A DNA stretch of 39,729 nt from positions 1-39,729 of the IMG/VR virus record IMGVR_UViG_3300020034_000448; one strand, written 5' to 3'. This DNA is from a virus. The notes under the pieces are model-generated. The model ran no database searches. It was not told the DNA's origin and worked only from the letters and a program-made list of their open reading frames with translations. Of this stretch, positions 6,669 through 39,058 are shown in pieces (the first letter of the stretch is position 1; every line of letters starts with the position of its first letter). Position numbers and translations under genes: made by a program.

Positions 6669-7214
6669 TCAAAACGTTCCTCCCATCTTCTTATAATAAT
6701 ACAGGCAATTGGATATCATGTCTATCTGATATTGATTTATCCGAAATGAGCTTACATATTTTGAGCCCACTATTTGAATTTCAGCTTTCTTGCTTTTTGC
6801 TAAAGCCTCAATCAATGGTAGATCGCTGCTTGATACACTATTGTCGGACCACTCCAGCTCCTTTCCTTGAGTATAATCTCTATCAACATCACCATTAATT
6901 ATAAACTCAAATGGCTCATCATCTATGGAAAATCTATACGTATCCGGATTCAACCAGGATGTGCCTTGAATGTATATTCTAAAATTGAATGGGAGGCCAT
7001 CTACTGTTGCAAAATAACAATATACAAGCCTTTGGTTCATGATTGCACCAATGCCTTTTGGCTTATACCAGGTCTTCTTTTCAGTATCAAACTTATCTGC
7101 CTTAATTCTGAAAAATGAATCTATCTCTTTCTGAAGCTTTGGATCAATTGGCGTTTGAGCAAATGATAAAGTACTTAAGACGGTTAAAATTGTAAAAATG
7201 ATTATAGGCCTCAT
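6669..7214 (-). CDS. secreted cargo protein
   Basis: A 181-aa protein with a clear Sec signal peptide (hydrophobic core IIIFTILTVLSTLSFAQ, cleavage probably after FA or at the FAQ typical of Bacteroidetes). The mature part is beta-rich with several Trp and Tyr and has no motif I recognise. It follows a lipoprotein gene by 21 bp. Such exported genes in a phage are usually cargo (morons) that alter the host surface or periplasm; this role is inference. Confidence 0.65.
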   Translation of the reverse strand: MRPIIIFTILTVLSTLSFAQTPIDPKLQKEIDSFFRIKADKFDTEKKTWYKPKGIGAIMNQRLVYCYFATVDGLPFNFRIYIQGTSWLNPDTYRFSIDDEPFEFIINGDVDRDYTQGKELEWSDNSVSSSDLPLIEALAKSKKAEIQIVGSKYVSSFRINQYQIDMISNCLYYYKKMGGTF

Positions 7215-7235
7215 AAATTTTCATTTTCAAATATG

Positions 7236-7835
7236 CTAGAATACCATGCTTAGGTCGCTCCTCTTTTTAATTCTAAAATCAGATGTTTGAAGTAATTCCA
7301 TACTATCATGGCAAGTTTGGACGAGCGACTTATCAGAATAGCATACCTTAAATAACACCTTGTAGAACATAAAAGTAGTTGAATCGATGGTATTCTCGCT
7401 ATGAGCCTTAACTAAGCTGTCGCCTATTGATCTATACTTATCACCAAGATCTAAGTACATCTTCGCCGTCTCTAGATCATCGTCAAGATCGTTTTTTGCT
7501 TCCGTATAGAGAGACCACATTCTAAGTGCAGAATAACTTCTCGCCAATGAGAGGTCCAAATCTAACCGCTTCTGGTAATTTTTTCCTAATGCCAAAAACA
7601 AGTTTGCTGAATCGACTGTTTGGCCGATAAAAATTACAACTTGGTCCTTTTTTGTAAATGTATCAACATCGAGTAATCTAATTGAATCCACGGTTAGAGT
7701 GGAATCCATCTCATATAGTATTTGTTTTTCATAGATTACGAGAGTCTTCTCAATTGCTTTATGAAGTTTCTTTTCAGCGCTAGAACATGAGCAAATAACA
7801 ACGCATAGCAATAATAATTTAAAGGTGGTTTTCAT
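7236..7835 (-). CDS. lipoprotein, cargo gene
   Basis: A 199-aa protein with an N-terminal lipoprotein signal (KLLLLCVVICSCSS; Cys in the lipobox region) followed by a helical, Asp- and Ser-rich domain. It should be anchored in the host envelope. It starts the minus-strand cargo operon (lipoprotein, secreted protein, 73 aa, 53 aa), which ends at the inverted repeat and the terminator near 5950. No family is recognised. Confidence 0.65.
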   Translation of the reverse strand: MKTTFKLLLLCVVICSCSSAEKKLHKAIEKTLVIYEKQILYEMDSTLTVDSIRLLDVDTFTKKDQVVIFIGQTVDSANLFLALGKNYQKRLDLDLSLARSYSALRMWSLYTEAKNDLDDDLETAKMYLDLGDKYRSIGDSLVKAHSENTIDSTTFMFYKVLFKVCYSDKSLVQTCHDSMELLQTSDFRIKKRSDLSMVF

Positions 7836-14174: not shown

Positions 14175-15149
14175 CTATGCACCATCGTTGATACGAAGCA
14201 CTTTATTGGACATGATACCGATACCTGCACCGAACTTGAAGTCGATCATAAGGTCGAGTGCCCTGTGATTCTTCTCGATCATGATAGTGTCTCCATCATT
14301 AGCACCATCATATGCATGGTATAAGTTGGCTGGATCTGTGAATATGATCTTGTCAGTCACATCCATACCTACAGTAGGTACAAGCCATGCTGGTGCAAAA
14401 TCAAGACGTACCATTTCAGTACCATTCATCTGCTCAACCTTGGTATACTTGCTGATCTGATCGCGATATGCGCGCAGATACAATGAATAAGTGTCAAGTG
14501 ATACGAATCCAAAAGTCTTAGCCCTCCGCTGTGCTGGTGATAATCCTGCGTGCACAGCTTCACACTGGTCGATGATATCCGCTTCAGTTAATGCACCAGT
14601 GGACACCTCTGTTATTTCGGATGCAGTGACAGCATCTGCGATTTGCTTGAGGAATCCATTGACCAGGTTGGTCAGAGGATCTGTGACTGCTGATCCAGTC
14701 TTGACGCCAGTCCATATAGCAGTTTCTTTTTCCTCCGCCATTTTTTCAAAAACCTTACCCAGCACGAATGCCTGAAATGGAAAATCATCCACCTTGAATC
14801 CTGGCTTGCGTGACATACCCAGGTATTGCTCTTCATACTCCTGAGGATAAACCTGAAGATCCACTTTCGCAGGACTCACGGTGATGGTACGTGGCTTATA
14901 GTCAATCGCTCCGACAGTAGGATCGAAAGTTTTCTTCCACCTGTGCACGAGTGTGCCCAGCAACATTTCTGTCAGGATCTTCTCACCTTTCACTCCTTCG
15001 AGTGGTGTGATCAGATCACCTGTGGAGAACCCGGAGAATAGCTTCGAAAGCAATTGCTCCTGGTAGGTCCGGATATAATTCTGAAATGATGCTGCCTCTG
15101 TGAAATCAACAGAGGCGGACATCATCGCTAGCAGATTAGGAAATTTCAT
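14175..15149 (-). CDS. major capsid protein, HK97-fold type
   Basis: A 324-aa protein following the protease/scaffold gene. It shows an N-terminal helical segment (YIRTYQEQLLSKLFSGFSTG), a central helical region (EKMAEEKETAIWTGVKTG), a segment resembling the A-domain (DTYSLYLRAYRDQISKY) and late beta strands (DLMIDFKFGAGIGIM). Length, order and secondary-structure pattern fit an HK97-fold capsid protein of the Bacteroidetes phage type. It has no obvious N-terminal delta domain because scaffolding appears to be part of the upstream protease gene. Confidence 0.8.
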   Translation of the reverse strand: MKFPNLLAMMSASVDFTEAASFQNYIRTYQEQLLSKLFSGFSTGDLITPLEGVKGEKILTEMLLGTLVHRWKKTFDPTVGAIDYKPRTITVSPAKVDLQVYPQEYEEQYLGMSRKPGFKVDDFPFQAFVLGKVFEKMAEEKETAIWTGVKTGSAVTDPLTNLVNGFLKQIADAVTASEITEVSTGALTEADIIDQCEAVHAGLSPAQRRAKTFGFVSLDTYSLYLRAYRDQISKYTKVEQMNGTEMVRLDFAPAWLVPTVGMDVTDKIIFTDPANLYHAYDGANDGDTIMIEKNHRALDLMIDFKFGAGIGIMSNKVLRINDGA

Positions 15150-15209: not shown

Positions 15210-16304
15210 TTACTTGACAGTTTGAGCGGCGGCCATCTTCCGGGCCTTGACATTCATCGGATGATTTTCGAACTCACGACCATTAGCTCCACCTGTAGAT
15301 GGTGCTTCATCTTCTGATGCGAATTCGGTCACTGTACCGACAGGTTTCTTTTCAAGCTCTGCGATGCGGTCATCCTTTGTCTTGATCTGAGATTTGAGAC
15401 CGGTGATCTCCTCAGTCATCGTCTTCTTGAATTCAGTGAACTGATCACTGAGTGATTTCAACTCCGGTGATGTTGTCACATCTTCCTTCTGAGTTGTGGC
15501 TGCTGGCGCAGGTGTTTCTTTTGGATCCATTGATTTAGATTTGAATATGCTTGGGAATAATTTGGCTAGTGAGAATTGATATTTGTCTCCGAAGAATGCC
15601 TGCAGCTTTGGGAAGTGATCTTCATTTTCCCGCATGAACTCCAAAAAATTAGGAGCATCATGTATCTCTGCGAGTGCACGTGCTACATTGTTCTGGCCAT
15701 CATTTGACATGAGGCTGTCAGTGAGTGCACCCTGGTCTACAATGTCACAAGAGAATAGTCGCGCGAACTCTACGAATACAGGTTTGTTTTTGAATTGCTT
15801 CTCCGGACCTGACCACCAGTTGGACTGGACATAGACCTTCACGCCTTTGTCATCGTACTGGTAGAATCCTGCAGATTCAAATTTGATGGAGCACATCACA
15901 GCTTGTGGATCCTCTTCTGCGAGATCCATAAACCACTCTGCCATATCCTTCATCGCAGGAGACTTGTCAGCTGCTTTGTAGACGGAGAGCTGTGCACGGA
16001 ATTCTGTACCATCAGCAGATACTTTCCCTCCATCGAATCTTCCGAGTTGGAAGTAAAGAGCATCCCACCGGTGACCCATGTTGCACTGAACACGTCCGCC
16101 CATTTCCTTGCGGATGTATTTGCTCATGTCAGAGAGGAATGATGCCTCTACACTGAATCCATGACCGTCAGCTTCACCTGTGCGGATGAGCAGGACATCA
16201 TCTATAGTGCGGCCTTCGCGATCGATGCTCAGTTTAGTCTCAGCATTGGACTTAGTTCTGAACTCGATAGTTAATGGCTTTGCTTTAGGGATGTCGATCT
16301 CCAT
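15210..16304 (-). CDS. prohead protease fused to scaffold
   Basis: A 364-aa protein from the ATG at 16304. An upstream TTG at 16346 is in frame but lies inside the TGTCCTATA element; the 16304 start sits 33 nt from the element, the same as at other copies. Residues about 1-215 look like a phage prohead protease (candidate catalytic His in CNMGHRW, Ser in MCSIKFE; the SCDIVDQGALTDSLM segment is typical). Residues about 255-345 are a disordered Pro/Ala/Thr linker and a coiled coil with repeated Glu/Lys, as in scaffolds. The Met in SKSMDPKETPAP could be an internal start for free scaffold. Its partner is the capsid gene 60 bp downstream. Confidence 0.75.
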   Translation of the reverse strand: MEIDIPKAKPLTIEFRTKSNAETKLSIDREGRTIDDVLLIRTGEADGHGFSVEASFLSDMSKYIRKEMGGRVQCNMGHRWDALYFQLGRFDGGKVSADGTEFRAQLSVYKAADKSPAMKDMAEWFMDLAEEDPQAVMCSIKFESAGFYQYDDKGVKVYVQSNWWSGPEKQFKNKPVFVEFARLFSCDIVDQGALTDSLMSNDGQNNVARALAEIHDAPNFLEFMRENEDHFPKLQAFFGDKYQFSLAKLFPSIFKSKSMDPKETPAPAATTQKEDVTTSPELKSLSDQFTEFKKTMTEEITGLKSQIKTKDDRIAELEKKPVGTVTEFASEDEAPSTGGANGREFENHPMNVKARKMAAAQTVK

Positions 16305-16336
16305 GCGGTGAAGATGCATGTGAGGCATGTTTCGGC

Positions 16337-16401
16337 TATAGGACAAGGCTCACTACACTTGGTGACCGCTGATGTGCGCTGATATAAATGATGGCGCTGA
16401 T
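16337..16401 (-). promoter_or_regulatory. TGTCCTATA element, copy 3, with phased GCTGAT repeats
   Basis: TTGTCCTATA (16337-16346) is followed on the upstream side by TGAT words starting at plus-strand positions 16370, 16380, 16389 and 16398, spaced 10, 9 and 9. Three are in the form CGCTGAT. A GGTGACCGCTGATG block is shared with copy 7. The arrangement looks like an activator-dependent late promoter for the protease-capsid operon; the activator is unknown. Confidence 0.6.
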
Positions 16402-16478: not shown

Positions 16479-17057
16479 CTACGGGAATACATCCACCTCC
16501 AGATACATGGTACCTGCGAGATTGGCGGCAGCTCCGGCCGCGTCGAATATCTTGATGACTACTGTGCTGTCTGTAATACTATAGGCGTGCGCTACCAGTC
16601 CGGTAGCATTGCCCACCGAAGTGGTCACGAAAGTTTTATTGGCGGTGAATGCATCATCAAGCTCCCATACATATATGCCTGTGCTGGTGTATGTATATGC
16701 CCCTGCGCCCGATAGCTCATTATCGACTACCACCGCCGTGGGTGCCGACGTCGATGCCTGACTTAGGACTGCGAGATATTTACTATGATCGACACCGATA
16801 GGATCGTCATCAGTACCCACTCCCTGCATCGATGCATCGTGTACAGGTGGCTGCCACATATCAGCAGTGCGGTGCATGCTACGGAATGAGGAGATATCAT
16901 TGAATGTCGATCCTCCGAATATGCCGGCACATGATACCGAGATGCCTGACTGATCAGGTGGAGAAAGATCAGCCGCTGGAGTCAATGCATGTATTAACAT
17001 AAGTGCGAACGTGAGCAGTAATGCACCGAACGAAAGATTTTTGAGATTAAAGTTCAT
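16479..17057 (-). CDS. exported protein with fibre-like motif
   Basis: A 192-aa protein with a strong signal peptide (SFGALLLTFALMLIHALTPA). The mature part contains QPPVHDASMQGVGTDDDPIG, a form of the D-x-x-M/L-x-G-x-GT-x(3)-P-L-G motif found in many phage tail fibres, then a beta-rich Ala/Thr/Val region. The same motif is in the 206-aa gene at 18775. It is the last gene of the operon. A surface or virion adhesin role is inferred; a Sec signal is odd for a virion protein. Confidence 0.65.
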   Translation of the reverse strand: MNFNLKNLSFGALLLTFALMLIHALTPAADLSPPDQSGISVSCAGIFGGSTFNDISSFRSMHRTADMWQPPVHDASMQGVGTDDDPIGVDHSKYLAVLSQASTSAPTAVVVDNELSGAGAYTYTSTGIYVWELDDAFTANKTFVTTSVGNATGLVAHAYSITDSTVVIKIFDAAGAAANLAGTMYLEVDVFP

Positions 17058-17101
17058 GAGTTTGGATTTGAAGATTGATAGATGGTGGTGGTGACTACAG
17101 G

Positions 17102-17530
17102 TCAGTCAGCTACATATTGATATATCCCTTTGACGCGGAATACGTCGACAGCTACTTTGTATTGATTGGCCAGATCTCCCACGGTGAATGTGTCATAGCC
17201 GCGCCTGATCTCCGAGATCAATATCCTGCCGATCACTCCTGCAGTCGTATCGATACGCCAGATGGGTACCACGTAGAATGTATTGAGCTTAGTCCTGACA
17301 GCGGCACCGATAGCTGCTACTGCTGTGGAGTCATTAGCATTGTCCAGTGTACCCGGAACAGTGATATCAAATGGCTGGTATACAGGAGACGTCAGCTTAG
17401 CCACTGTCGGGATGTTGGCATGTGTAGGCAGATTCTTGGTCGAGATATTAGTAGTCCAGGCACTGGTGAGCTGTGCCGACATCTGCATCGAGAGGAATGC
17501 GCAAAGGAAGAATGAGATAAATAATTTCAT
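17102..17530 (-). CDS. exported protein of the fibre cluster
   Basis: A 142-aa protein with a classic Bacteroidetes signal peptide (LFISFFLCAFLSMQMSAQ, cleavage at SA-Q). The mature domain is about 120 aa, beta-rich with many Thr and Val, and matches no family I recognise. It lies between two other exported proteins in the same direction, with a TGTCCTACA element 52 nt before the ATG. Confidence 0.65.
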   Translation of the reverse strand: MKLFISFFLCAFLSMQMSAQLTSAWTTNISTKNLPTHANIPTVAKLTSPVYQPFDITVPGTLDNANDSTAVAAIGAAVRTKLNTFYVVPIWRIDTTAGVIGRILISEIRRGYDTFTVGDLANQYKVAVDVFRVKGIYQYVAD

Positions 17531-17581
17531 GTCGATAGTTTTTTTTGACTAATCAAATATTGCACACGAGGTATGTATCAC

Positions 17582-17591
17582 TGTAGGACAT
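17582..17591 (-). promoter_or_regulatory. TGTCCTATA element, copy 4 (ATGTCCTACA)
   Basis: The minus strand reads ATGTCCTACA in the short gap after the 272-aa gene, 52 nt before the next ATG. No phased repeats lie behind it because the upstream DNA is coding, so it is a weaker member of the set. Confidence 0.35.
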
Positions 17592-18409
17592 CATGCCCGG
17601 GTGATCACTGTATATCCTTCGTTAAGCAACGATAGTAATTCATCATCATCCATGCATCGGTCACGCGCATCGATAATGGTACCTTCTTCTGCATATGCTC
17701 GTGATGAGCCTCCTGATCCAAAATTGTTTAGAACCTGATTCCATCCGAGTGATTCGAATATGAGTGGGATGGAGTCGTTGACAGTGTTCCATCGGAAGTC
17801 TGCGCGTTCTCTTCCGAGCTGGCAGGTACCTTTGATATCATTGGAGAGTGTGTCACGCTGCGATACTGTAGATTCAAGCTGCCTGAAGTTGAAGGACCTG
17901 CAGGAAGGATGTGTCTTGATAATCTCCCTGAAATGAGAATATGTAATGATACCTCCGAAGTAAAATGCCTGTATTGAAAATGTCGGCCATTGATTAAGAT
18001 CATCTGACCGGGTGTGCACTTTCAATTGGAAGATCGTCTTGTCGTTTGTACCCTCCACGAATACCACGAACTTAAACCAGTCATCGAGATAGATCTTGTA
18101 TTGATATTGCGGAGCGAACTTCTTGAGTGTAGCGATGATGCTGTCTGGCTTGCCGGGCTGATCGAGATACAGTGTCGTGCTGTATGCACCTGCATAGAAT
18201 GTGACCGGTGTCTGTGGCTCATTCAGATCAAGATACATGGTGAGGAATGCTGGCTCGATGACTTCTGCAGGGATGCATGGTGTGTCGATCACTACCGGCT
18301 CAGGATTGTTGAGGTCATCACATCCGTAGCAGCATGAGTGCAATGTGACGATAGCATACACTAATGCAGCGCATGCAATGAGGAGGAATGGAGGGAGAAA
18401 TTTTTTCAT
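17591..18409 (-). CDS. membrane-anchored or lipoprotein-like protein of the fibre cluster
   Basis: A 272-aa protein whose N-terminus (FLPPFLLIACAALVYAIVTL) is a membrane segment or signal, followed by HSCCYGCDD with three clustered Cys, so it could be a lipoprotein or an N-terminal anchor. The rest is mixed alpha/beta (DDWFKFVVFVEGTNDKTIFQ) with no known domain. Its ATG overlaps the stop of the 29-aa micro-gene (ATGA). Confidence 0.6.
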   Translation of the reverse strand: MKKFLPPFLLIACAALVYAIVTLHSCCYGCDDLNNPEPVVIDTPCIPAEVIEPAFLTMYLDLNEPQTPVTFYAGAYSTTLYLDQPGKPDSIIATLKKFAPQYQYKIYLDDWFKFVVFVEGTNDKTIFQLKVHTRSDDLNQWPTFSIQAFYFGGIITYSHFREIIKTHPSCRSFNFRQLESTVSQRDTLSNDIKGTCQLGRERADFRWNTVNDSIPLIFESLGWNQVLNNFGSGGSSRAYAEEGTIIDARDRCMDDDELLSLLNEGYTVITRA

Positions 18410-18495
18410 TTATAATTTATTTTAAGATCAAACCAAATCGGACACCACCAGTACTTACCCTGAATGAATCCGTAAGAATCTACTCGTGTTTTCAT
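18406..18495 (-). CDS. 29-aa micro-gene
   Basis: ATG at 18495 to TGA at 18406. The ATG overlaps the TGA of the 61-aa gene (ATGA), and its own TGA overlaps the ATG of the 272-aa gene (ATGA). The product is aromatic-rich (GFIQGKYWWCPIWFDL). Two precise 4-bp overlaps, one at each end, are the main evidence that it is translated, as part of a coupled chain. No function is known. Confidence 0.5.
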   Translation of the reverse strand: MKTRVDSYGFIQGKYWWCPIWFDLKINYK

Positions 18496-18677
18496 GATAT
18501 TGCTTTTTGGTATTCATCAATGATCATCTTGTGCATGGTACGCCGTGACAATGTTTTCGTTCTGTCCTCTCTTGATATCTTAGTTAGTACTTTATCCCTC
18601 CACTTATCACCCATGAGCTTGAATATGTCTTGCTCTATTGATACCACTTCGTCCAGATTTGATTTTGTGATTCTCAT
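18492..18677 (-). CDS. small uncharacterised protein (61 aa)
   Basis: A 61-aa hydrophilic, basic helical protein (KLMGDKWRDKVLTKISREDR). Its ATG overlaps the stop of the 35-aa lipoprotein gene and its stop overlaps the 29-aa gene, both as ATGA. The tight coupling suggests stoichiometric production with its neighbours. It lacks a signal peptide, unlike most genes around it. Confidence 0.55.
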   Translation of the reverse strand: MRITKSNLDEVVSIEQDIFKLMGDKWRDKVLTKISREDRTKTLSRRTMHKMIIDEYQKAIS

Positions 18678-18781
18678 GGCATCGCTGTTACAACCTGTCT
18701 CTCAACTCTCCTGTCACAGTCCGATATATTTCTTTGGAGCGTGCATGATGTGATGAGAAGGAAAAGAAGGTACTTTACCAT
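18674..18781 (-). CDS. 35-aa lipoprotein micro-gene
   Basis: ATG at 18781 (overlapping the preceding stop as ATGGTAA) to TGA at 18674. The product begins MVKYLLFLLITSC, a short lipoprotein signal with lipobox ITSC, leaving a mature peptide of about 23 residues, polar with one further Cys. Very small lipoproteins in phages are often outer-membrane spanins, but the neighbouring protein is not an obvious inner-membrane partner. It is supported by overlaps at both ends and a coherent lipobox. Confidence 0.55.
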   Translation of the reverse strand: MVKYLLFLLITSCTLQRNISDCDRRVERQVVTAMP

Positions 18782-19395
18782 GTTGTGAGTGGAGTTCGTA
18801 CCCATGTATTAGTGGCTATACAGACATACAGGAAATTATCATCCCATGCAATTTGTCCAGTTACACCATTATCCGATGATGTTTCAGGGGTATACGGAAA
18901 CCCTATTGCGAAAAAACCACTCACATCAAGCCCCTCTAATCTGGGATCGTTAGTATTTATTCCAAACTTTCCATTGTGGTTTGTATTGTCAAAGAAAACA
19001 CGATTGTTATTATCCTGTATTTCGATAATATTGCCATTATTTGAAGCGGACACATTTCCTATTGTAGATACCCCTGTAGCATCACCTAGCCTAATTCCAC
19101 TCTTTTGTCCTTCTATTGACAATTGATTTCCAAAAATAAATACGTTCCTATCAGTTGTTAAGTCCTGCGCTTCTGCCAGCACAGCATCAATCCCCGGAGT
19201 AGAGCCACCAACTGTAGTCAGATCATATTTCGTAGCGATCCATTCTACTGTATCGCATCCGAGGATATCATCATCAGTGCCGGTGCCGATCATAGTATCA
19301 TCATGACGCGGAGGCTGCCAGTCTACTACAACTTTGGCACTGATGGCACCGATGAAGAGTATGCCGAGCAGAAAATATAATATCCTTGATTTCAT
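18775..19395 (-). CDS. exported tail-fibre-like protein
   Basis: A 206-aa protein with a signal peptide (ILYFLLGILFIGAISA). It contains QPPRHDDTMIGTGTDDDILG near residues 27-46, matching the motif in the 192-aa protein, and a C-terminal GQIAWDDNFLYVC...TNTWVRT segment that is frequent at the tips of phage fibres. It begins the coupled chain of small genes and follows the large fibre gene by 96 bp containing a hairpin and a TGTCCTATA element. Confidence 0.7.
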   Translation of the reverse strand: MKSRILYFLLGILFIGAISAKVVVDWQPPRHDDTMIGTGTDDDILGCDTVEWIATKYDLTTVGGSTPGIDAVLAEAQDLTTDRNVFIFGNQLSIEGQKSGIRLGDATGVSTIGNVSASNNGNIIEIQDNNNRVFFDNTNHNGKFGINTNDPRLEGLDVSGFFAIGFPYTPETSSDNGVTGQIAWDDNFLYVCIATNTWVRTPLTTW

Positions 19396-19451
19396 GATGT
19401 CGTGTTTAATTGAATAGTGATCCTAAAGATGTGTGCTGGCAAGTCCATAGA

Positions 19452-19461
19452 TATAGGACAT
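19452..19461 (-). promoter_or_regulatory. TGTCCTATA element, copy 5
   Basis: The minus strand reads ATGTCCTATA, 57 nt before the ATG of the 206-aa gene and 7 bp after the hairpin repeat at 19468. Confidence 0.45.
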
Positions 19462-19467
19462 ATGAGG

Positions 19468-19486
19468 GGGCGGATGCAATACGCCC
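19468..19486. repeat. intercistronic hairpin repeat
   Basis: GGGCGGATGCAATACGCCC, a near-palindrome with one mismatch, directly after the stop of the 822-aa fibre gene on the minus strand (5-nt gap). The flank ACGCCCTTAC is the same as at 25435. Confidence 0.65.
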
Positions 19487-19491
19487 TTACG

Positions 19492-21960
19492 TCAATTGTG
19501 CAGCCAGGCGGATCCGTATCCACACTCCCATATGGCGCTTTCTCCGGGATTGATGGTGAGGATGCCATTGATGGTGTCGCCTGATCCGGGTGCTGATACG
19601 GTGATCGCGCCTGATCCGGATGCATTCTGTATCTGGAACCAATAGCCCATCGTGGTGGATGATGCATCAGGTAGTGCGGCGGTCTTAGCCCCTGTGGCTG
19701 TCATCGCTAGTCCATTAGGAGAATTGTCAGTTAACGTCTCTGAAGCAAATGCACTGACTGCCCACTGGTGCCTGTCAATATATGCCCTGAACTTTCCGTG
19801 TACGTGTAGCGTGTCAACCGCGAAGCTTCCACTTATAAGCCCAAGCGTATAGTTACTATTAGATTGCTCTATGGACAATACTCCCGTCTGAGTGGTGATG
19901 CCTGCGCCTGCGCCTGCGCCTATGAATGTATTGATCGAGCCAGAGGTGAGGTCCTGCCCAGCGGCAGTGCCTATCACTACATTATATTCACCGGTAGTCA
20001 ATGCGCTGGCCGATGTGTACCCGACTACAGTATTGCCCTCACCGGTGAGAGCTGTGCCTATACCTGATCCGATGAGCGTATTGTAGTCACCTATATTGGA
20101 TGATCCAGATCCGGCAGTGCTCGCTCCGAGGATCGTGACGCCAGTGTTGAATGTATTTGATGTGTTGCGGCCGGACAGATATCCGATCACGGTATTAGTC
20201 CCCTGCATGTTGCGGCCGGCATAGCGTCCGATCATGACAGGACCTATCTCTCCAGATCCACTAGCCGGCAGATCTCCTGCTCCAAGACCTATGAAGACTC
20301 CTGCAGTAGCATTCTGACGACTACGTGCAGCGTCTTTTCCAATGGCTACATTACCACCTTTGGTAGCATTCAGTCTGAGCGCATCATAGCCGATGGCCAC
20401 ATTGGAGGAATCTACTGTACTGGCTGCTGCATTATTCCCTGCTCCGATACCGATGAATACATTTTTGGATCCGGATACCGATGTGGCTGTAATTCCACTC
20501 AGTACAGTATTACTATTGACATCAGCTATACGTCCGAGGCCGCGAAAGTCAAATGGATACGCGGGCTTGATGTTGATCCCCACCCTATTGTTAGTCCCGT
20601 CGATCGACAGCGTGCGTGCATCAAATGTGATGGAGTCGGTCATTGTCACCTGCACATTGGCCGGTGTGGTGCCATTGCCTCCATAGATCCCATTCATGCC
20701 GGTGATGGATGATGGATTGATCCACTCGATCTGTGATCCGGTAGACTTTAATATATACGATGCTGTGCCGGCAGATCCCGTCCGGTCGCGCAGTGCATCA
20801 CGTATACGCAGTGATGCATTGAGCCGGAATGTATCAGCGAGCATATCACCACTGAAGAATGCTGCTGCATCATTACTATTGTCGATGCGCATCATGTTAG
20901 ATGCAGTCACATTCTGACCTGCACCTGCACCTATCATGATATTACCATAGCCTACATTGTTTTGGCCGGACTGATATCCGATGAATACATTCTGTGTACC
21001 ATTAGTCGACTCCCCGGCGAATGATCCGATCGCGACATTGGCACTATTAGTCGTCATGGTATACAGCGCACGATGTCCCAATGCTACATTGTCAAATCCT
21101 GTAGTCATCGCGTGTGCAGGAAAAGATCCCGCGGCCAGATTCCGTACACCGGTGGTCAGTGCCTGCCCGGATTCAAGTCCCAGGAGTGTATTGTATGTAC
21201 CGGTGGTGAGGAATAGACCACCATTAGCACCGGCCACAGTATTACCCTGACCGGTCAGTGTAGTGTTGCCACCGGATAGAAATGTATTGCTCGTACCCTG
21301 CACCGATAGTATAGGTCCTGCCACATGCAGCTTATATCCGGCGAATGGTGTGATAGTACCGATACCCACACGACCACCACTGATGGTATGCCTTATGAAG
21401 AGCGTCCCATTGTCAAACTTCAGATCATCCAGTATCATCGCATGCACATGTGAAGGCACGGTACCTGATCCATCATATATGCCGTGTATCCCTCCTGCGA
21501 CCGTACCCAGGGCGATGCATGATGTGTCTCCATCTTCGATGATGCAGATGATGCTGTCACCCTCGAAGTATACCGAGTCACTCAGTATGAGACATGTAGT
21601 GTCAAGCTCCACGATGGTGCAGATCGTGTCTCCATGGATGGTAGTAATATTTGATGTGGCGATCGTGTCGATGTCCAGCTGGATGGAGTCGAGGATGTAC
21701 TGTTTGAGATTCTCCTGCCAGTAATTACCATCTGCATGCGAGATGAATGTGTAGCCTTGCTTGATGTGCGTGGTGTCAGCGGCAGGGATATTGGCCTTAG
21801 CCTTCCCGGTGTTGAGAGAATCGACGTAGGTGAAGTCTCGCTGTGGAAATAGTCGCTGGGAAAAAAGGATGGAGCAGGGAGCAAGGAGCAGGGTCGCTAA
21901 CAGTGCAAGTTTAATGATCGCTTTATATATACGCATGTAAGATGCTTTAGATGAATGCAT
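19492..21960 (-). CDS. large exported fibre/adhesin with YadA-like repeats
   Basis: An 822-aa protein. A signal peptide (IIKLALLATLLLAPCSILFS, cleavage near FSQ) favours a start at the second ATG (21936), though 21960 overlaps the upstream stop as TAATG. Residues about 40-150 are Asp/Thr/Ile-rich. Two blocks then follow, each with a GIYxGxGTxPxxV lead, an FDxxTLxI strand, and many NVAIGxxAG / NTVxGxxSG repeats, as in left-handed beta-roll heads of trimeric adhesins. The C-terminal about 80 residues form a separate tip (ALPDASSTTMGYWFQIQNAS). No S74 peptidase is seen. It probably binds host or cell surfaces. Confidence 0.75.
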   Translation of the reverse strand: MHSSKASYMRIYKAIIKLALLATLLLAPCSILFSQRLFPQRDFTYVDSLNTGKAKANIPAADTTHIKQGYTFISHADGNYWQENLKQYILDSIQLDIDTIATSNITTIHGDTICTIVELDTTCLILSDSVYFEGDSIICIIEDGDTSCIALGTVAGGIHGIYDGSGTVPSHVHAMILDDLKFDNGTLFIRHTISGGRVGIGTITPFAGYKLHVAGPILSVQGTSNTFLSGGNTTLTGQGNTVAGANGGLFLTTGTYNTLLGLESGQALTTGVRNLAAGSFPAHAMTTGFDNVALGHRALYTMTTNSANVAIGSFAGESTNGTQNVFIGYQSGQNNVGYGNIMIGAGAGQNVTASNMMRIDNSNDAAAFFSGDMLADTFRLNASLRIRDALRDRTGSAGTASYILKSTGSQIEWINPSSITGMNGIYGGNGTTPANVQVTMTDSITFDARTLSIDGTNNRVGINIKPAYPFDFRGLGRIADVNSNTVLSGITATSVSGSKNVFIGIGAGNNAAASTVDSSNVAIGYDALRLNATKGGNVAIGKDAARSRQNATAGVFIGLGAGDLPASGSGEIGPVMIGRYAGRNMQGTNTVIGYLSGRNTSNTFNTGVTILGASTAGSGSSNIGDYNTLIGSGIGTALTGEGNTVVGYTSASALTTGEYNVVIGTAAGQDLTSGSINTFIGAGAGAGITTQTGVLSIEQSNSNYTLGLISGSFAVDTLHVHGKFRAYIDRHQWAVSAFASETLTDNSPNGLAMTATGAKTAALPDASSTTMGYWFQIQNASGSGAITVSAPGSGDTINGILTINPGESAIWECGYGSAWLHN

Positions 21961-22931
21961 TAGAGTGCGATGGGCAGTATCTTGTCAAAGAAGTAAAACT
22001 CACATCTGGAATTGGCCAGCTCGCTTTCGAAGTATGCCCGACGTGTGGAGAAGTCGATGTAGTAGCCCTCCGGATGCAGATAGCTGAGCCATCTCGGACC
22101 TTGCTTAGTGAGCATCCGTCTGGATATCTCCATCTGAGTATCATACGTGGGATCCGGATAGTCGCCAGGATCAGGCAGCGGATAGCCGACCGGGATGGTG
22201 ACATATGGGAGCGTGTATCCATCAGGTACATCGATCTTGTAGTATGTATGCGATGGCCTGCTGAGCAATACCGATCTGCCGGTGTAGTCTATGAAGTATA
22301 CTGAGCCATCGATCGTGGTGACCATCTGGCTTAGGTTGAGAGCATTTCCCGTATCTGCTGGTGTGTAGGCAATATTGGTCGGGTAGATGCTGACACAGCA
22401 TACTTCCTCACCTCCACCACCTCCACCAGGAGGAGCAGGAGCTGTAGGTATATCACCGGATCCGGACATACCGGGATAGAGGTAGTCACACACGGCATTG
22501 AATGTGATGTTGTATCCATTCTTCGCGGGGCCGGTATCTCCGGTGGATCCGCCCCACCGCAGGATAGCATCATAGAGATAGTACTGATTGTCATAGCGGT
22601 CTATGGCGATGGCGAATACAGGTCTATTCCGCATCCGCATGAGCAGTGTCTCCACTTCCATCCGCATGCGTGGTACAAAGCATGAGGCTACAGATCTGTA
22701 GAAGTCACCACCGGAAAAGGTAGCACTACTGATCGTGTAGGATGCTGACCGCCGCTCGTAGCTGAAGGAATAGATCTTGTCCACATCCACAAATGTGAAT
22801 CCCGTGCCTGGTGCAGGTGGCAGGTAGCCGGCACCCACTCCCACGACATTACTCATGGGGGTGAATATGATAGCTTTGAGCCCGACCATGGACCCACAGA
22901 TCTTCTGTATGGAATATAATGTGGTGTGCAC
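21960..22931 (-). CDS. conserved Bacteroidetes phage structural protein
   Basis: About 323 aa from a GTG at 22931; another candidate is the ATG at 22889, and the frame is open from 23027. The N-terminal half follows a pattern I know from Bacteroidetes phages: a VGLKAIIFTP strand, an FEYERRSASYT-like strand pair, helix MRMEVETLLMRMRNRP, FAIAIDRYDNQYYLYDA, and GDTGPAKNGYNITFNA. A Gly-rich linker (residues about 170) and Cys pair separate it from a C-terminal domain. It is likely a tail or baseplate component before the fibre gene. Confidence 0.6.
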   Translation of the reverse strand: MHTTLYSIQKICGSMVGLKAIIFTPMSNVVGVGAGYLPPAPGTGFTFVDVDKIYSFSYERRSASYTISSATFSGGDFYRSVASCFVPRMRMEVETLLMRMRNRPVFAIAIDRYDNQYYLYDAILRWGGSTGDTGPAKNGYNITFNAVCDYLYPGMSGSGDIPTAPAPPGGGGGGEEVCCVSIYPTNIAYTPADTGNALNLSQMVTTIDGSVYFIDYTGRSVLLSRPSHTYYKIDVPDGYTLPYVTIPVGYPLPDPGDYPDPTYDTQMEISRRMLTKQGPRWLSYLHPEGYYIDFSTRRAYFESELANSRCEFYFFDKILPIAL

Positions 22932-22957
22932 CGCTGCTAATGTAGCAGCATGAGGAG

Positions 22958-23644
22958 CTAAGGCATTAGGACAGAGCCTGATGAGACCATGTCGCGGAAG
23001 GATCGGAGGTGATAAGACACATTGCACCGGTACCTTCCGAGCTTATCCGCGATATCGGATGGCCTCCATCCATGTGCGGCCATGGCATAGATGATCACCT
23101 TGATCACCATATGCAGGATAGGCCTGCCATCCGGTGTCATGTACAATGATGGATCAGCAGAAATGACCCGGGAGGCATACTCAAAAGACAGATTAATGTC
23201 GTCCCGATGCCGTTGAAATTTTCGTAGGACAGGTTTCAGTGATTTAGTTTCAAAATTTGTGCTGTTTTTCTTCACTTTGAATCTTTGCCACCTTTTGTAG
23301 GCGGTACCGTAGTCGAGATCGTCGATCGTGAGGCCGATCATGACATAGTATTCTTTCATGGCTACTTCTGCATGGCCGCCCAGATCTACAGCCCGGCACA
23401 TGTGCTGTATCATTTCATCCATGTGGATCTCGTAGAGATTGGCACCGGCATCTTCCCGCACACAGGCCAGCACTTCACTCTTCCCGTGCAGGATGATCTC
23501 CCGCATCATGTCCCGGGGCGTAGGCACCTGTGGCTTGAATGACAGAAGGGGCATCAGTGTATGGGATGGCGTCACGCGGATCTCATGGGATCCATACTTG
23601 GTGACCAGGGAGTGATATGTGAGGGGGTGAACCCTAAGAATCAT
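22958..23644 (-). CDS. helix-turn-helix protein resembling DnaA C-terminal domain
   Basis: A 228-aa protein from the ATG at 23644 (a GTG at 23668 is also in frame). The C-terminal 60 residues, with IIYAMAAHGWRPSDIADKLG then RCNVSYHLRSFRDM, match the helix-turn-helix layout of DnaA domain IV. The rest is helical and not recognised. It lies inside the tail operon with no regulatory neighbours. It may bind DNA as a regulator or packaging or replication factor; which is unknown. Confidence 0.55.
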   Translation of the reverse strand: MILRVHPLTYHSLVTKYGSHEIRVTPSHTLMPLLSFKPQVPTPRDMMREIILHGKSEVLACVREDAGANLYEIHMDEMIQHMCRAVDLGGHAEVAMKEYYVMIGLTIDDLDYGTAYKRWQRFKVKKNSTNFETKSLKPVLRKFQRHRDDINLSFEYASRVISADPSLYMTPDGRPILHMVIKVIIYAMAAHGWRPSDIADKLGRYRCNVSYHLRSFRDMVSSGSVLMP

Positions 23645-31860: not shown

Positions 31861-32321
31861 GGGTGTTGTTTTTCAGGGGGTGATTGTAATCTGAGGTTAA
31901 GTTTTCCTGAGGCTACTTTGTCATATAGTGTTTCATCATTCTTTACATCATACACGAATGGCAGGAACATCTGGAGCGCTTCTGCCTGTCCCAGGATGAT
32001 CATGGAGCACTGTACTTCTGTCCAGTCAGACAGGATCTTCCAGGCTGTACGATTGGCCTGAGCCAGTACTCTTTCCTTAGTGCCGGCAATTGGTTTTTTA
32101 ACCTCCTTAAAAAGGACGTTGAATGCTTCATCTACCTGCGCCTTCAGCCTGAATGCAAGTGGACCCATCTTCGGATCTGTGAATAGAAAGGTGATGCCGG
32201 AGCATACCTTCTCGTGATAACTTTTGTTGATGTTGGATGCACCGATCTGGACAAGCAAGTCTTCGATGTGTGCCATGGACCTTGAGGCGGGAACTTCGGA
32301 GGTGTAGTTTTTGATGTTCAT
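31857..32321 (-). CDS. conserved phage protein of unknown function
   Basis: A 154-aa protein starting MNIKNYTSEVP. I recall related proteins with the same opening in many phages and prophages without known function. It has a Cys in VCSGITF and a helical second half (TEVQCSMIILGQAEALQMF). It overlaps its neighbour by one base (TAATG). Confidence 0.55.
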   Translation of the reverse strand: MNIKNYTSEVPASRSMAHIEDLLVQIGASNINKSYHEKVCSGITFLFTDPKMGPLAFRLKAQVDEAFNVLFKEVKKPIAGTKERVLAQANRTAWKILSDWTEVQCSMIILGQAEALQMFLPFVYDVKNDETLYDKVASGKLNLRLQSPPEKQHP

Positions 32322-32728
32322 TATGTATGCATATTAAATTTCAGATATTCAAATGAGACAATTGTTTTTATGCTGGTATTGTCTGGGTGCGGATCGTGTG
32401 CTAATCCATTTTTCCACACCACGGCATGGTTAAATTCTCCTCTGGGACTTTTGCCGATCGCAATCACGTATCCATCTGTATCCTCAGCGTCCAAGTCATG
32501 TTCATCTAAATTTTCAATCGACAAACCAAAATATTCAAATCCTTTGTTCCTTAAAATATTAACCATTAACTCGTAATATTCGGGCCAGGTCTCGTCCATG
32601 TCAGAATATTGTGGAGAAGGAAAATCGTCGATATCACATTCAAGTATTGATGCAAAGCATGCCCTCCAGCAATCGCCGACAATACCATTTTCTGGATCGT
32701 GAGTATGTGTTTGAAAGACTCGTATCAT
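32321..32728 (-). CDS. papain-like small protein
   Basis: A 135-aa protein with GDCWRACFASIL near the N-terminus (candidate nucleophile Cys) and FNHAVVWKNGLAHDPHPDN near the C-terminus (candidate His and Asp). This Cys...His...Asp layout fits a papain-like fold seen in small phage proteins. The substrate is unknown; it could be a protease, amidase or transferase. It starts after a terminator, so its expression is probably separate from upstream genes. Confidence 0.6.
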   Translation of the reverse strand: MIRVFQTHTHDPENGIVGDCWRACFASILECDIDDFPSPQYSDMDETWPEYYELMVNILRNKGFEYFGLSIENLDEHDLDAEDTDGYVIAIGKSPRGEFNHAVVWKNGLAHDPHPDNTSIKTIVSFEYLKFNMHT

Positions 32729-35666: not shown

Positions 35667-38612
35667 TTATTTAAAATCTGGTCTTGCTTCGAAATTTAGT
35701 TTTGCCTGGGATGCGTCAAAGTGCTCATCCGCTATAGTGAAGAATTCTATTCCACCGGTACGGTCACGAATATCTTTGTGACCTGCCCGGAGTGGATTGT
35801 AATCGAAATCATCATACTTGCAGTAAGCTTGCAGCCTTAACTTGAAAGCCGAAGGATCAAGCCATCTACGCAGATTAGGATACTGGTGGTGTACCTTATT
35901 CAGGACTTCTAGCAGCTCCCACCTGACATTGATATGAACCCCTCCACGATAATAGTATGTCTGTAAAAAGTCGAGGAGATGCTCTCCTATATAGTCGCGT
36001 AGCTTACGACGCTGTATATCTTTCTTCGAGGCAAATGTGACAAGGCCATGCTTCATATACAGTGAAAGACAGGTGGCCATGAAGTTGTAGAAGTAATTCC
36101 ACTGATCGTAATTCCACTCTTTGAACATCTCGTGACCAAATACATCACGAGGTGTACGGTCTTCATTGAAGAAGTCCGAGAATGCTATAATGTGCTGCCT
36201 GCGCAGATAACTTTTATCATCGCCCCTGATGGAGAAATTAGTATTGAATATCATTTTTCGAAGACCCACAAAGTATTTTCCAATACTCTTGGCATTGACC
36301 CACAATCCTCTGGTGATAGCTGATTTGAATGCTCCAAAATTAAAATTGCGCGGACAATCATCAAACACCACCAATCTATTTCGATCATCCACACCTTCGT
36401 ATAGAAACTTATCATCTGTCACGTCTCCCTGGTCGGCAGGTATGACAACCGTGGGAATAATATGCTCAAACATGGTGGAGTAAATGGACTTGCCTGTACC
36501 TCCCTGCTGCTTGGCAGTATCCTGCGCATCCATCGCAATGATGGCCTTTAGGTTGCTACTGCGGTGATATGAGCATAATACATATCCAGCAGCCAACATC
36601 TTGTCAGCCAAAGCACACATCATGACTTCAATGCGCTCATCCTGCTGGTCGGCACCTGTATTTTGCCACAAAAAATCACTTGTCGCTTTAACGTACTGTA
36701 TGATATCAATGACTAAATCTTCCTGTCCCTGATCCACCTCTGTGATCCATGCTTTATCTCCAGTTTCAGATTTTGAAATTTCAAAATTGATCAATGGGTC
36801 AAGGCGCTTAGGCGAAAATGGAATCACATCATTTTCCCATACCTGACCAGGCAATTCTTTGTGATCATGCTGGCTAACTCCATCAGATGTAATCTTCCAG
36901 AATGAATCTTTGAATATGAAATATTGTGTATCCGGATCTGGTGTTAGAAATTTTGGTGACACCGGATACATATTCGTCAGACGCTTTTCACTGAGGTATG
37001 AATCGTCGCCGGTCATAATCAATTTAAATACTGGACGGTCGTTGAGAGCTTCGGTGAAATCCTGAACATATTCTTTGATCTCATGCCCAGACTTCTCATA
37101 TATAATGTTGTCTGCTATTTGAACAAACCTGTATGATTTTTTGTGAATCTGCAATTTTCCAAAGCCCCGATTTTTTAAAAAATATCTAATGTTGATATGA
37201 TCAAACTTCATAGTCATGCGACCATCTTTGTCTTCATCCATGTACCAGTATTTTTCGCCTGGCTTGATAGGATGAAGGAAGTCAAAGACATCCTTGGAGG
37301 CATCATACTTGTATTCCGTTTTTCCTATAGAGAACTTTTCAATATTCTTCAGCTCGTCCTTATGGTGCTCCATGAATGATATGGGTGACTGCAAATGCCA
37401 TATCTCCTTTATGTCGTATTCTGACATCATGGTAAGATCAATAGCCCGTATCAATATGCTTTGATGAGTGTGCAGGTAAAGAGCATCATCAATTTCTTTT
37501 TTGATATCCAGATCCCATGGAGCTGCCATAAGCAAATCATCCATGCCCTTGTACTGCGGATCCACTCCATGAGCCATGAATAATTTTAGATTATGAAATG
37601 ATGGGCTATGGCGATAGGCGTCAAAGTATGTTTTGAATTTCTGGACTGCGCTGCAGAACATGAGCGGCCGGTATTCTGGCTTGTCATCTTTAGATCCTAG
37701 TGCCTGATAATCTGAGTCCAGGATAAATACGACACACTCCACCCTGCAATCAGTCATGAGCCGCTGAAACTCTGCCGGCATTTCATTAGCAACAGAAAAA
37801 TTGTATATGCCAGATATACCCACAGAAGGCACTCCCCTACATGTGAGTGCATCAGCTTTTTTCTCACCCTCTATGACTATGAGGGTTTTGATTTGATCTT
37901 TATTTGAAAAAGATTTGCGGACGGATTCCGGAATCCAGAGATGATTGCCTCCATTCCGTGGAGAATTATACCTGGTAGGCTTACCGGATTTGTCTAAATG
38001 CGCGTGCGGGAATGCAAACCTGATGCGGATATAAGGCCTATTCTTCTGGCTCTTGGGAGGGCAATACATGATGGGCTTACCATCCAGATCCAGATAATGC
38101 AATAGCATATCACCCCCTACTATGGGGTAGCCTTGCTTATCAAGTGATCCGGCAGTATACCGATTGAGGGTGATGCCTTCCTCATTAGTCCATTGCTGAG
38201 CTTCTTCAGGTATTCCGGATCCATGAAGCTGTGCATTGCGAAAGTCTGTTGATAATTTGTTGGAAGATGCTACCGGCAGATGATCCGGGTGCACGTAAGA
38301 CTGCTCTGCCGTGATATCGACGTTGAGATGATTAGCTAACCATTCCATGGCGTCCAAGTACTTCATGCCTTTAAATTGGATCAGGTATCCAATGGCACCG
38401 GCACCACCTCGTTTACATTTGAAGCATTTTACAACATCTTTTGCAAGATTAACTGAGAAGCTTTTATCATCACCACACGCGAGGCATTTTCCTTTTTCAG
38501 ATCTGCCGGATCGGTTAGTCTCCTGATATAGATGTACGATCTCAAGAAGATGAGGCTTGGCAGCTTCTATGAGCTTATCACCTTTTTCTTTTTGAATGAA
38601 TTTTATCGACAT
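35667..38612 (-). CDS. primase-helicase (zinc ribbon, Toprim-like, SF3 helicase)
   Basis: A 981-aa replication protein. A CHC2-like zinc ribbon has Cys at 43, 46, 63 and 66. A Toprim/DUF3854-like region near 240-300 contains IVIEGEKKADAL and FILDSD. A superfamily 3-like helicase follows: Walker A GGTGKS near residue 705, Walker B LVVFDDC near 750, and a sensor with MIFNTNFSIRGDD near 790. Together they give primer synthesis and unwinding. No DNA polymerase is visible, so the host enzyme or a gene outside the window would be needed. Confidence 0.85.
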   Translation of the reverse strand: MSIKFIQKEKGDKLIEAAKPHLLEIVHLYQETNRSGRSEKGKCLACGDDKSFSVNLAKDVVKCFKCKRGGAGAIGYLIQFKGMKYLDAMEWLANHLNVDITAEQSYVHPDHLPVASSNKLSTDFRNAQLHGSGIPEEAQQWTNEEGITLNRYTAGSLDKQGYPIVGGDMLLHYLDLDGKPIMYCPPKSQKNRPYIRIRFAFPHAHLDKSGKPTRYNSPRNGGNHLWIPESVRKSFSNKDQIKTLIVIEGEKKADALTCRGVPSVGISGIYNFSVANEMPAEFQRLMTDCRVECVVFILDSDYQALGSKDDKPEYRPLMFCSAVQKFKTYFDAYRHSPSFHNLKLFMAHGVDPQYKGMDDLLMAAPWDLDIKKEIDDALYLHTHQSILIRAIDLTMMSEYDIKEIWHLQSPISFMEHHKDELKNIEKFSIGKTEYKYDASKDVFDFLHPIKPGEKYWYMDEDKDGRMTMKFDHINIRYFLKNRGFGKLQIHKKSYRFVQIADNIIYEKSGHEIKEYVQDFTEALNDRPVFKLIMTGDDSYLSEKRLTNMYPVSPKFLTPDPDTQYFIFKDSFWKITSDGVSQHDHKELPGQVWENDVIPFSPKRLDPLINFEISKSETGDKAWITEVDQGQEDLVIDIIQYVKATSDFLWQNTGADQQDERIEVMMCALADKMLAAGYVLCSYHRSSNLKAIIAMDAQDTAKQQGGTGKSIYSTMFEHIIPTVVIPADQGDVTDDKFLYEGVDDRNRLVVFDDCPRNFNFGAFKSAITRGLWVNAKSIGKYFVGLRKMIFNTNFSIRGDDKSYLRRQHIIAFSDFFNEDRTPRDVFGHEMFKEWNYDQWNYFYNFMATCLSLYMKHGLVTFASKKDIQRRKLRDYIGEHLLDFLQTYYYRGGVHINVRWELLEVLNKVHHQYPNLRRWLDPSAFKLRLQAYCKYDDFDYNPLRAGHKDIRDRTGGIEFFTIADEHFDASQAKLNFEARPDFK

Positions 38613-38632: not shown

Positions 38633-39058
38633 CTAAGCGAAATGATTATTCAACTCAGTCAATAGCTGACCGAGGCTCATGCCTGGATGATCCATATTAT
38701 AAATCTTAAATCGGCGTGTAAAACTTGCATCATCTGAAATGGTTTCAGGTGGAATGCTGCTGGAGATAAAGATGAATCCGGGTTGTATTTCAAATGGTTC
38801 CTCAAGTCTTCTGACGACAATTACACCACGACTTATGTCCGTAAAAAAATAAGTCAGATGGACTTGATGTTTGATGCCATCGACAACTATTAACTGAGTG
38901 TCTTTGTCACACTGATTAAAGAAATATTTCTCTCGTTTTCTGCGATGATTAATTTCTATTGCTGAGACTATTACTGTTCGAAATACATTGGCCATTAATT
39001 TGGCAATGATAGTTTTGCCTGATGCAGGAGATCCGATTATTAAGATTGCTTTCTTCAT
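38633..39058 (-). CDS. small P-loop ATPase
   Basis: A 141-aa protein with Walker A GSPASGKT near residues 8-15, a Walker B-like strand (TQLIVVDGI), a sensor-like strand (GFIFISSSI) and an Arg-finger candidate (FTRRFKIY). It resembles a minimal AAA-type ATPase. It is coupled to the upstream regulator (ATGA) and precedes the primase-helicase, so it may load or aid replication proteins. Confidence 0.7.
   Translation of the reverse strand: MKKAILIIGSPASGKTIIAKLMANVFRTVIVSAIEINHRRKREKYFFNQCDKDTQLIVVDGIKHQVHLTYFFTDISRGVIVVRRLEEPFEIQPGFIFISSSIPPETISDDASFTRRFKIYNMDHPGMSLGQLLTELNNHFA

Follow-up and report, generated by a model that had tools for sequence, protein, structure and literature searches.

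Virions of tailed phages are taken to assemble wholly in the cytoplasm; why, then, should such a phage carry a run of fibre-like genes whose products begin with export signals? The question is raised by positions 16479-21960 of the IMG/VR virus record IMGVR_UViG_3300020034_000448, analysed here from position 1 to 39,729 over its full 39,729 bases (hereafter, the window), where a cassette of seven open reading frames (ORFs) lies on the minus strand within the late structural operon. Our best explanation, which as a whole we rate at about an even chance, is that the window belongs to a temperate, siphovirus-like phage of Bacteroidota type and that the cassette is its distal tail-fibre (receptor-binding) block, the fibres of which would be exported by the Sec system, cleaved by signal peptidase I (SPI) and mounted at lysis on particles built in the cytoplasm. 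Support comes from the cassette itself, its signals, its homology to fibres, the recurrence of the arrangement elsewhere and the attribution of equivalent proteins to the virion by tandem mass spectrometry (MS/MS) in two other phages.

The steps that we infer are export, cleavage, timing and docking at lysis, together with their transfer to the window phage. The cassette proteins would be made late from the structural operon and pass through the inner membrane by way of the Sec machinery of the host, whereupon SPI would cut them, typically exposing an N-terminal Gln (the Q-rule). The exported proteins would then fold or form trimers, either within the periplasm or on the envelope, while head and tail assemble in the cytoplasm. 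Lysis would then mix the compartments and allow the exported fibres to dock onto the tail. P22 tailspikes can likewise be added to finished particles.

The cassette sits between tail-type genes and the capsid gene, all on the same strand, with short gaps between its ORFs, which from the 5' end of the operon encode products of 822, 206, 35, 61, 272, 142 and 192 amino acids (aa), followed by a 378-aa protein and then the capsid gene. Signals were called with our own rule-based Sec and lipoprotein caller, not SignalP, which looks for a positive n-region, a hydrophobic 9-12-mer and either the -3/-1 rule or a lipobox, and which returned false positives for 5-10% of shuffled N-termini and for 5/63 spurious antisense ORFs. 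Six of the seven cassette ORFs (822, 206, 272, 142, 192 and 35 aa) were called, compared with 3/39 other window genes (Fisher p = 5.9e-5; gene-order permutation p = 0.0015), while the 61-aa ORF (18492..18677) gave no signal with this caller. With that error rate of 5-10% per gene, the cassette N-termini show the features of Sec/SPI substrates, namely a positive n-region, a hydrophobic core and small residues at -3 and -1, and all six products credited with signals by the initial annotation are among those called, from ORFs lying where it had placed them. Gln at +1, the Q-rule of SPI substrates in Bacteroidetes (PMC5837995), is found in 2/5 of the window proteins, the 822-aa product (S↓Q, the arrow marking the predicted cut) and the 142-aa product (MSA↓Q, a site picked by eye).

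The fibre homology is clearest at the head of the cassette. The 822-aa fibre- or tail-spike-like protein (19492..21960; signal-peptide (SP) score 3.3) most likely starts at an internal ATG, Met9, at position 21936, from which a predicted Sec/SPI signal peptide, MRIYKAIIKLALLATLLLAPCSILFS↓Q, extends over 21859..21936, as placed by the signal caller and the Q-rule position. It matches tail-spike and virion-protein families (PHROG 4636 tail spike, 1e-20; 6002, 1e-18; 23837, 2e-8) through YadA-head-like or spike repeats of the NVAIGxxA type, which together with the PHROG match stretches delimit residues 218-698 (19867..21309); no Pfam domain was found at E up to 0.5, nor any NCBIfam match. The 206-aa exported-type, fibre-like protein (18775..19395; signal ISA↓KVV; SP score 3.46) ends in a 37-residue tail-protein module (residues 170-206; 18778..18888) that is 62% identical to Klebsiella phage FBKp24 and is present in 123 records from phages of Klebsiella, Synechococcus, Mycobacterium and Cellulophaga, where most of the proteins bearing it are labelled as tail or structural ones; it is also carried by the signal-bearing phi46:3 gp80 and Nekkels gp54. 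Just inside its signal lies a second module (19216..19320), reading WQPP..HD...GTDDD..G.D, which it shares with the exported-type 192-aa protein (16479..17057; SP score 3.43; BLASTP E = 4e-10 between the two). In a small set of sequences, the C-terminal part of the latter matches gp37 of Flavobacterium phage 11b, a protein without a signal, at 31% identity (E = 2e-4). The fibre motifs that had been noted in several of the products are thus borne out for the 822- and 206-aa proteins and weakly for the 192-aa one. Between these genes lie a cysteine-rich 272-aa protein (17591..18409; SP score 3.91), the hydrophobic N-terminus of which could be a cleaved SPI signal, a lipoprotein signal or an uncleaved anchor; an exported-type 142-aa protein (17102..17530), for which the top site of the caller differs from the one judged likely by eye (MSA↓QLTS); and a 35-aa ORF (18674..18781) called for its lipobox (LLITS-C; ITSC), doubtful as a gene since it is too short to be proven real. 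Single-sequence AlphaFold models of the 272- and 142-aa proteins were unusable, with predicted local distance difference test (pLDDT) values of 42 and 35, respectively.

Other identities were considered and rejected: a YadA-type trimeric autotransporter for the 822-aa protein, in which Pfam (E up to 0.5) gave no C-terminal membrane-anchor domain; cargo of the type IX secretion system (T9SS), no C-terminal sorting domain being found in the cassette proteins with Pfam or NCBIfam; and a defence function for the cassette, which had no PADLOC match.

The same arrangement recurs in cultured Cellulophaga phages, where contiguous blocks of 3-5 signal-bearing genes are present in phi10:1, phi19:1 and Nekkels (Assiduviridae), phi46:3 and phi13:2 (Pachyviridae) and Ingeline (Duneviridae), the block in phi13:2 being interrupted by one small signal-free gene. 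The genes of these six blocks encode structural proteins, pectate lyases and tail fibres with canonical signals at their start. In phi10:1 and phi19:1, signals were called in 8/8 distal fibre-block proteins on the virion MS/MS list (gp91-94 and gp101-104), and in 0/10 of the other listed proteins (portal, head, connector and tail), where the MS/MS status is the depositors' record annotation and the fibre-block class was assigned in this analysis. The Q-rule holds for 15/16 distinct N-termini of the Cellulophaga fibre blocks, compared with 6/56 background N-termini in which Gln comes after a small residue within that stretch. The initial annotation had offered two options for such a cassette, decoration of the cell surface or a gain of these proteins by the virion during exit, and it is the latter that is better supported by the recurring signal-bearing fibre cassettes and by the MS/MS attribution. 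That attribution also places proteins analogous to those of the window in virions as fibres, which in part bears out an outcome that the annotation had set against its own proposal.

For one of these N-termini, selection is pronounced. Across the gp93 family of three 777-aa pectate-lyase proteins, codons 1-45 contain 13 synonymous-only and 0 amino-acid-changing columns (14 and 0 when five phages are compared), and codons 46-120 contain 12 and 1, whereas the bodies diverge such that whole proteins are about 62% identical in 2/3 comparisons; the 20 codons of the signal alone have 6 synonymous-only and 0 amino-acid-changing columns. It is what one sees when a conserved N-terminal virion-attachment module carries a variable C-terminal body, the signal here being included in the module. 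A second module, consisting of a signal and about 20 further residues (a 38-42-residue N-terminus), recurs, with a few amino-acid changes, on a tail fibre and on pectate lyases of two kinds.

The bodies themselves are found behind other front ends. Over 650 residues, that of phi10:1 gp93 shares about 50% identity with phi17:2 gp54, which has a signal-free N-terminus of 314 residues instead; the fibre body of Ingeline is related to phi12:1 gp50 and phi17:2 gp50, both signal-free; and in Klebsiella and cyanobacterial phages (Klebsiella FBKp24, GADU21, S-CAM8) the C-terminal module of the 206-aa type belongs to proteins that have no signal. As the bodies occur without signals in other phages, they are ordinary virion fibres, and the N-terminus with the signal is one of the alternative front ends that they can have. 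Among 42 primase-related IMG/VR contigs, two carry signal-bearing pairs, one (G410) encoding a 666-aa fibre-like protein and a 522-aa pectate lyase (PHROG 27797) and the other (G404) encoding proteins of 1059 and 214 aa that lie within the tail module, and in a further contig (L112) one large beta-helix protein on its own bears a signal; because the contigs were read in pieces with a simple gene caller, this frequency is a lower bound.

One conceivable purpose of export is glycosylation, for which the general O-glycosylation consensus of Bacteroidetes is D-S/T-(A,I,L,V,M,T). In the window cassette this motif occurs 19 times vs 7.8 expected from shuffled sequence (about 2.4-fold), compared with 19 vs 17 in the other structural proteins of the window, and elsewhere the observed and expected counts are 16 vs 5.1 (G404), 5 vs 12.9 (phi10:1) and 3 vs 15.4 (phi46:3). 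Periplasmic O-glycosylation as a general reason for export was rejected on the depletion in Cellulophaga phage proteins, for which reason the motif, though enriched in the window and G404, is at most a local feature.

Several observations weigh against the export of fibres, and some of them favour its chief rival, in which the hydrophobic N-terminus serves not for export but for docking or membrane assembly, on virion proteins that are made and mounted in the cytoplasm, and would be retained or cut by a phage protease. Signal-like leaders are also present on capsid and tail-tube-like proteins of some related phages, and since proteins of these kinds have to be assembled in the cytoplasm, export does not follow from a signal-like N-terminus; capsid signals are mentioned for Porphyromonas phages too, with the suggestion that they are cut by the prohead protease (PMC10367356). 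The gp93-family signal, without a single amino-acid-changing column, is conserved beyond the generic needs of export, which also suits an uncleaved docking role. The rival has less to say about the near-invariant Q-rule site of the Cellulophaga fibre N-termini, which has a known meaning only for processing by SPI, or about the equivalent bodies that in other phages use unrelated, non-hydrophobic N-termini, and we consider it unlikely, if a serious contender. Further difficulties concern the window proteins themselves. The 272- and 142-aa products have no relatives in Pfam, PHROG, NCBIfam or PADLOC and no homology to fibres, and close relatives of the five cassette proteins were not found in IMG/VR, GTDB or related-record searches. 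More precisely, the capsid, 570-aa, 206-aa and 192-aa proteins had no close relatives in IMG/VR, the 192-aa protein had no match in the GTDB genomes searched, nor in 395 genomes of the Bacteroidota phylum, the 822-aa protein had none in 50 related viral records, and in the capsid relatives L020-L027 the corresponding place holds no fibre cassette. Nor is the arrangement universal, the signal-bearing cassette being absent from most Bacteroidota phages examined: the caller revealed none in phi12:1, phi17:2, phi38:1 (part), B40-8, 11b, P2559S, 6H, FCL-2, RAP44, P12024S, P12002L or a stretch of crAss001. Finally, the MS/MS evidence being depositors' annotation for other phages, envelope contamination of the phi10:1 and phi19:1 virion preparations is possible.

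Such contamination is what would be expected if the exported proteins instead decorated the envelope of the infected or lysogenic cell, in adhesion, receptor masking or superinfection exclusion. T5 Llp, an exported lipoprotein that blocks receptors, provides an example from phages of other hosts. The signals look real, the repeats of the 822-aa protein resemble adhesin heads, and envelope modification has been proposed for Q-rule phage proteins (PMC10367356). Set against this, the cassette lies tightly inside the late structural operon, and neither within it nor immediately before it did a match to the Bacteroidetes -33/-7 promoter turn up, with sigma-70-like matches in and near it at chance level; no outer-membrane anchor or T9SS domain was detected with Pfam and no defence family with PADLOC, and the equivalents elsewhere are annotated as structural from MS/MS. 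With no promoter of its own standing out, the surface-decoration option of the initial annotation has gained no positive evidence, and we think it improbable. Another reading, that these are host-derived exported proteins captured by the phage with their signals as functionless passengers, draws on the occurrence of VGIGTxTPxxKLHVxG and YadA-like repeats in exported Bacteroidota proteins as well; the strong purifying selection on the gp93-family signal and the residues that follow it, and the recurrence of signals on several unrelated bodies in a row, make it very unlikely.

The record begins exactly with a stop codon and ends exactly with a start codon, edges that would fit an excised provirus; its main genes are all on the minus strand, and capsid, terminase and portal are recognisable. 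By its capsid the record is related to Microcystis phage Mea-Yong924-1 and to prophage-like loci from two Sphingobacteriaceae metagenome-assembled genomes (MAGs), and its primase shares 26-35% identity with the primases of many viral contigs; a Bacteroidota bacterium is therefore the most likely host. The major capsid protein (14175..15149), in which no signal was called, is 30% identical to that of Mea-Yong924-1 over 97% of its length; the 378-aa protein directly downstream of the cassette (15210..16346), adjoining the capsid gene, occupies by position the place of a prohead protease or scaffold, and the neighbouring 355-aa protein on the other side (21960..23027) has no signal. Outside the cassette, calls were made at 6669-7214, 7236-7835 and 38633-39058, the last of which looks like a P-loop false positive. 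The other two, encoding exported-type proteins of 181 aa (SFA↓Q) and 199 aa (lipoprotein-like), form a pair (6669..7835) between the tape-measure and portal regions, and Q-rule proteins of similar size recur in other contigs, one with DUF4468 (L115 11839-12399). A 135-aa protein (32321-32728) with a GDCWRACFASIL...NHAVVW arrangement resembles a small papain-like or C39-like enzyme.

Among the relatives of the window, major capsid proteins with a signal-like hydrophobic leader were seen in L002 (21041-22126), L020 and L021 (9857-10939), L023 (9803-10900), L024 (2456-3574), L025 (9707-10855) and L026 (9821-10936); the capsid protein of the window has no such leader. A signal-like N-terminus is likewise present on a 220-240-aa protein in L003 (24788-25489), L040 (17845), L041 (20697), L050 (11358) and L043 (18129), several with a Q-rule site (SIVIA↓Q). 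By its position next to the capsid gene and its NNMGG motif, the L003 protein is probably tail-tube-like, and we read those of L040-L050 as putative members of the same family. The Microcystis phages Mea-Yong924-1 (L002) and Mae-Yong924-2 (L005) have their gene order and structural genes in common with the Sphingobacteriaceae MAG loci L020 and L021, and L002 encodes a Q-rule signal protein at 37136-37699, for which reasons a Bacteroidota host seems likelier for both than Microcystis.

How, then, does the cassette compare with what has been described? It is like phi10:1 gp91-95 and phi19:1 gp101-104 in being made up of contiguous late genes for fibre- or spike-like proteins with Sec-type N-termini and a short shared post-signal module, in a distal tail position. 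It differs in that its proteins have no sequence homology to them save for the 206-aa C-terminal module, shared with phi46:3 and Nekkels, and in that the Q-rule is nearly universal, and MS/MS attribution available, only in those phages. In Ingeline, a phage encoding an integrase, gp31-34 also form a row of four signal-bearing genes and lie some kilobases before the head-maturation protease, just as the window cassette lies ahead of the protease/capsid position; Ingeline differs in having a pectate lyase, in showing no direct homology to the window cassette and in belonging to a family of which another member, 6H, lacks such a cassette. Ordinary tail spikes and fibres (PHROG 4636, 17312) contain homologous repeat and C-terminal modules but, as in the Klebsiella FBKp24, GADU21 and S-CAM8 proteins, no export signal. 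Phage-encoded Bacteroidetes-type signal peptides are shared with the Q-rule proteins of Porphyromonas gingivalis phages, which are reported there without a function, are proposed as envelope modifiers and are not tied to fibres or virions (PMC10367356). The paper on flavophages describing Nekkels does not use the term 'signal peptide' (PMC8776804). In open-access full texts, the scope of our search, no prior description linking Q-rule or Sec signals to virion fibres was found, and the novelty of that link is for this reason provisional; the suggestion of an undescribed system applies to it and not to signal peptides of Bacteroidota phages as such, already reported for P. gingivalis phages.

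A broader form of the proposal, which we hold more tentatively and at somewhat less than an even chance, is that two-compartment assembly operates in several lineages of Bacteroidota tailed phages, whose heads and tails would be built in the cytoplasm while their receptor-binding fibres and depolymerases would leave by the Sec route, undergo SPI processing outside the cytoplasm (possibly also pyroglutamylation or glycosylation) and be mounted only at lysis via a conserved post-signal peptide. If true, phage assembly would come to involve host export enzymes and the conditions of the envelope, the fibres could bear modifications of host origin, and they could show on or in the envelope before lysis, affecting superinfection and aggregation. 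The free N-terminal module would be usable for the swapping of receptor-binding bodies, and a function would be on offer for some of the 'unknown' Q-rule proteins of Bacteroidota phages, an idea of exported fibres that can be put to the test in the cultured Cellulophaga phages.

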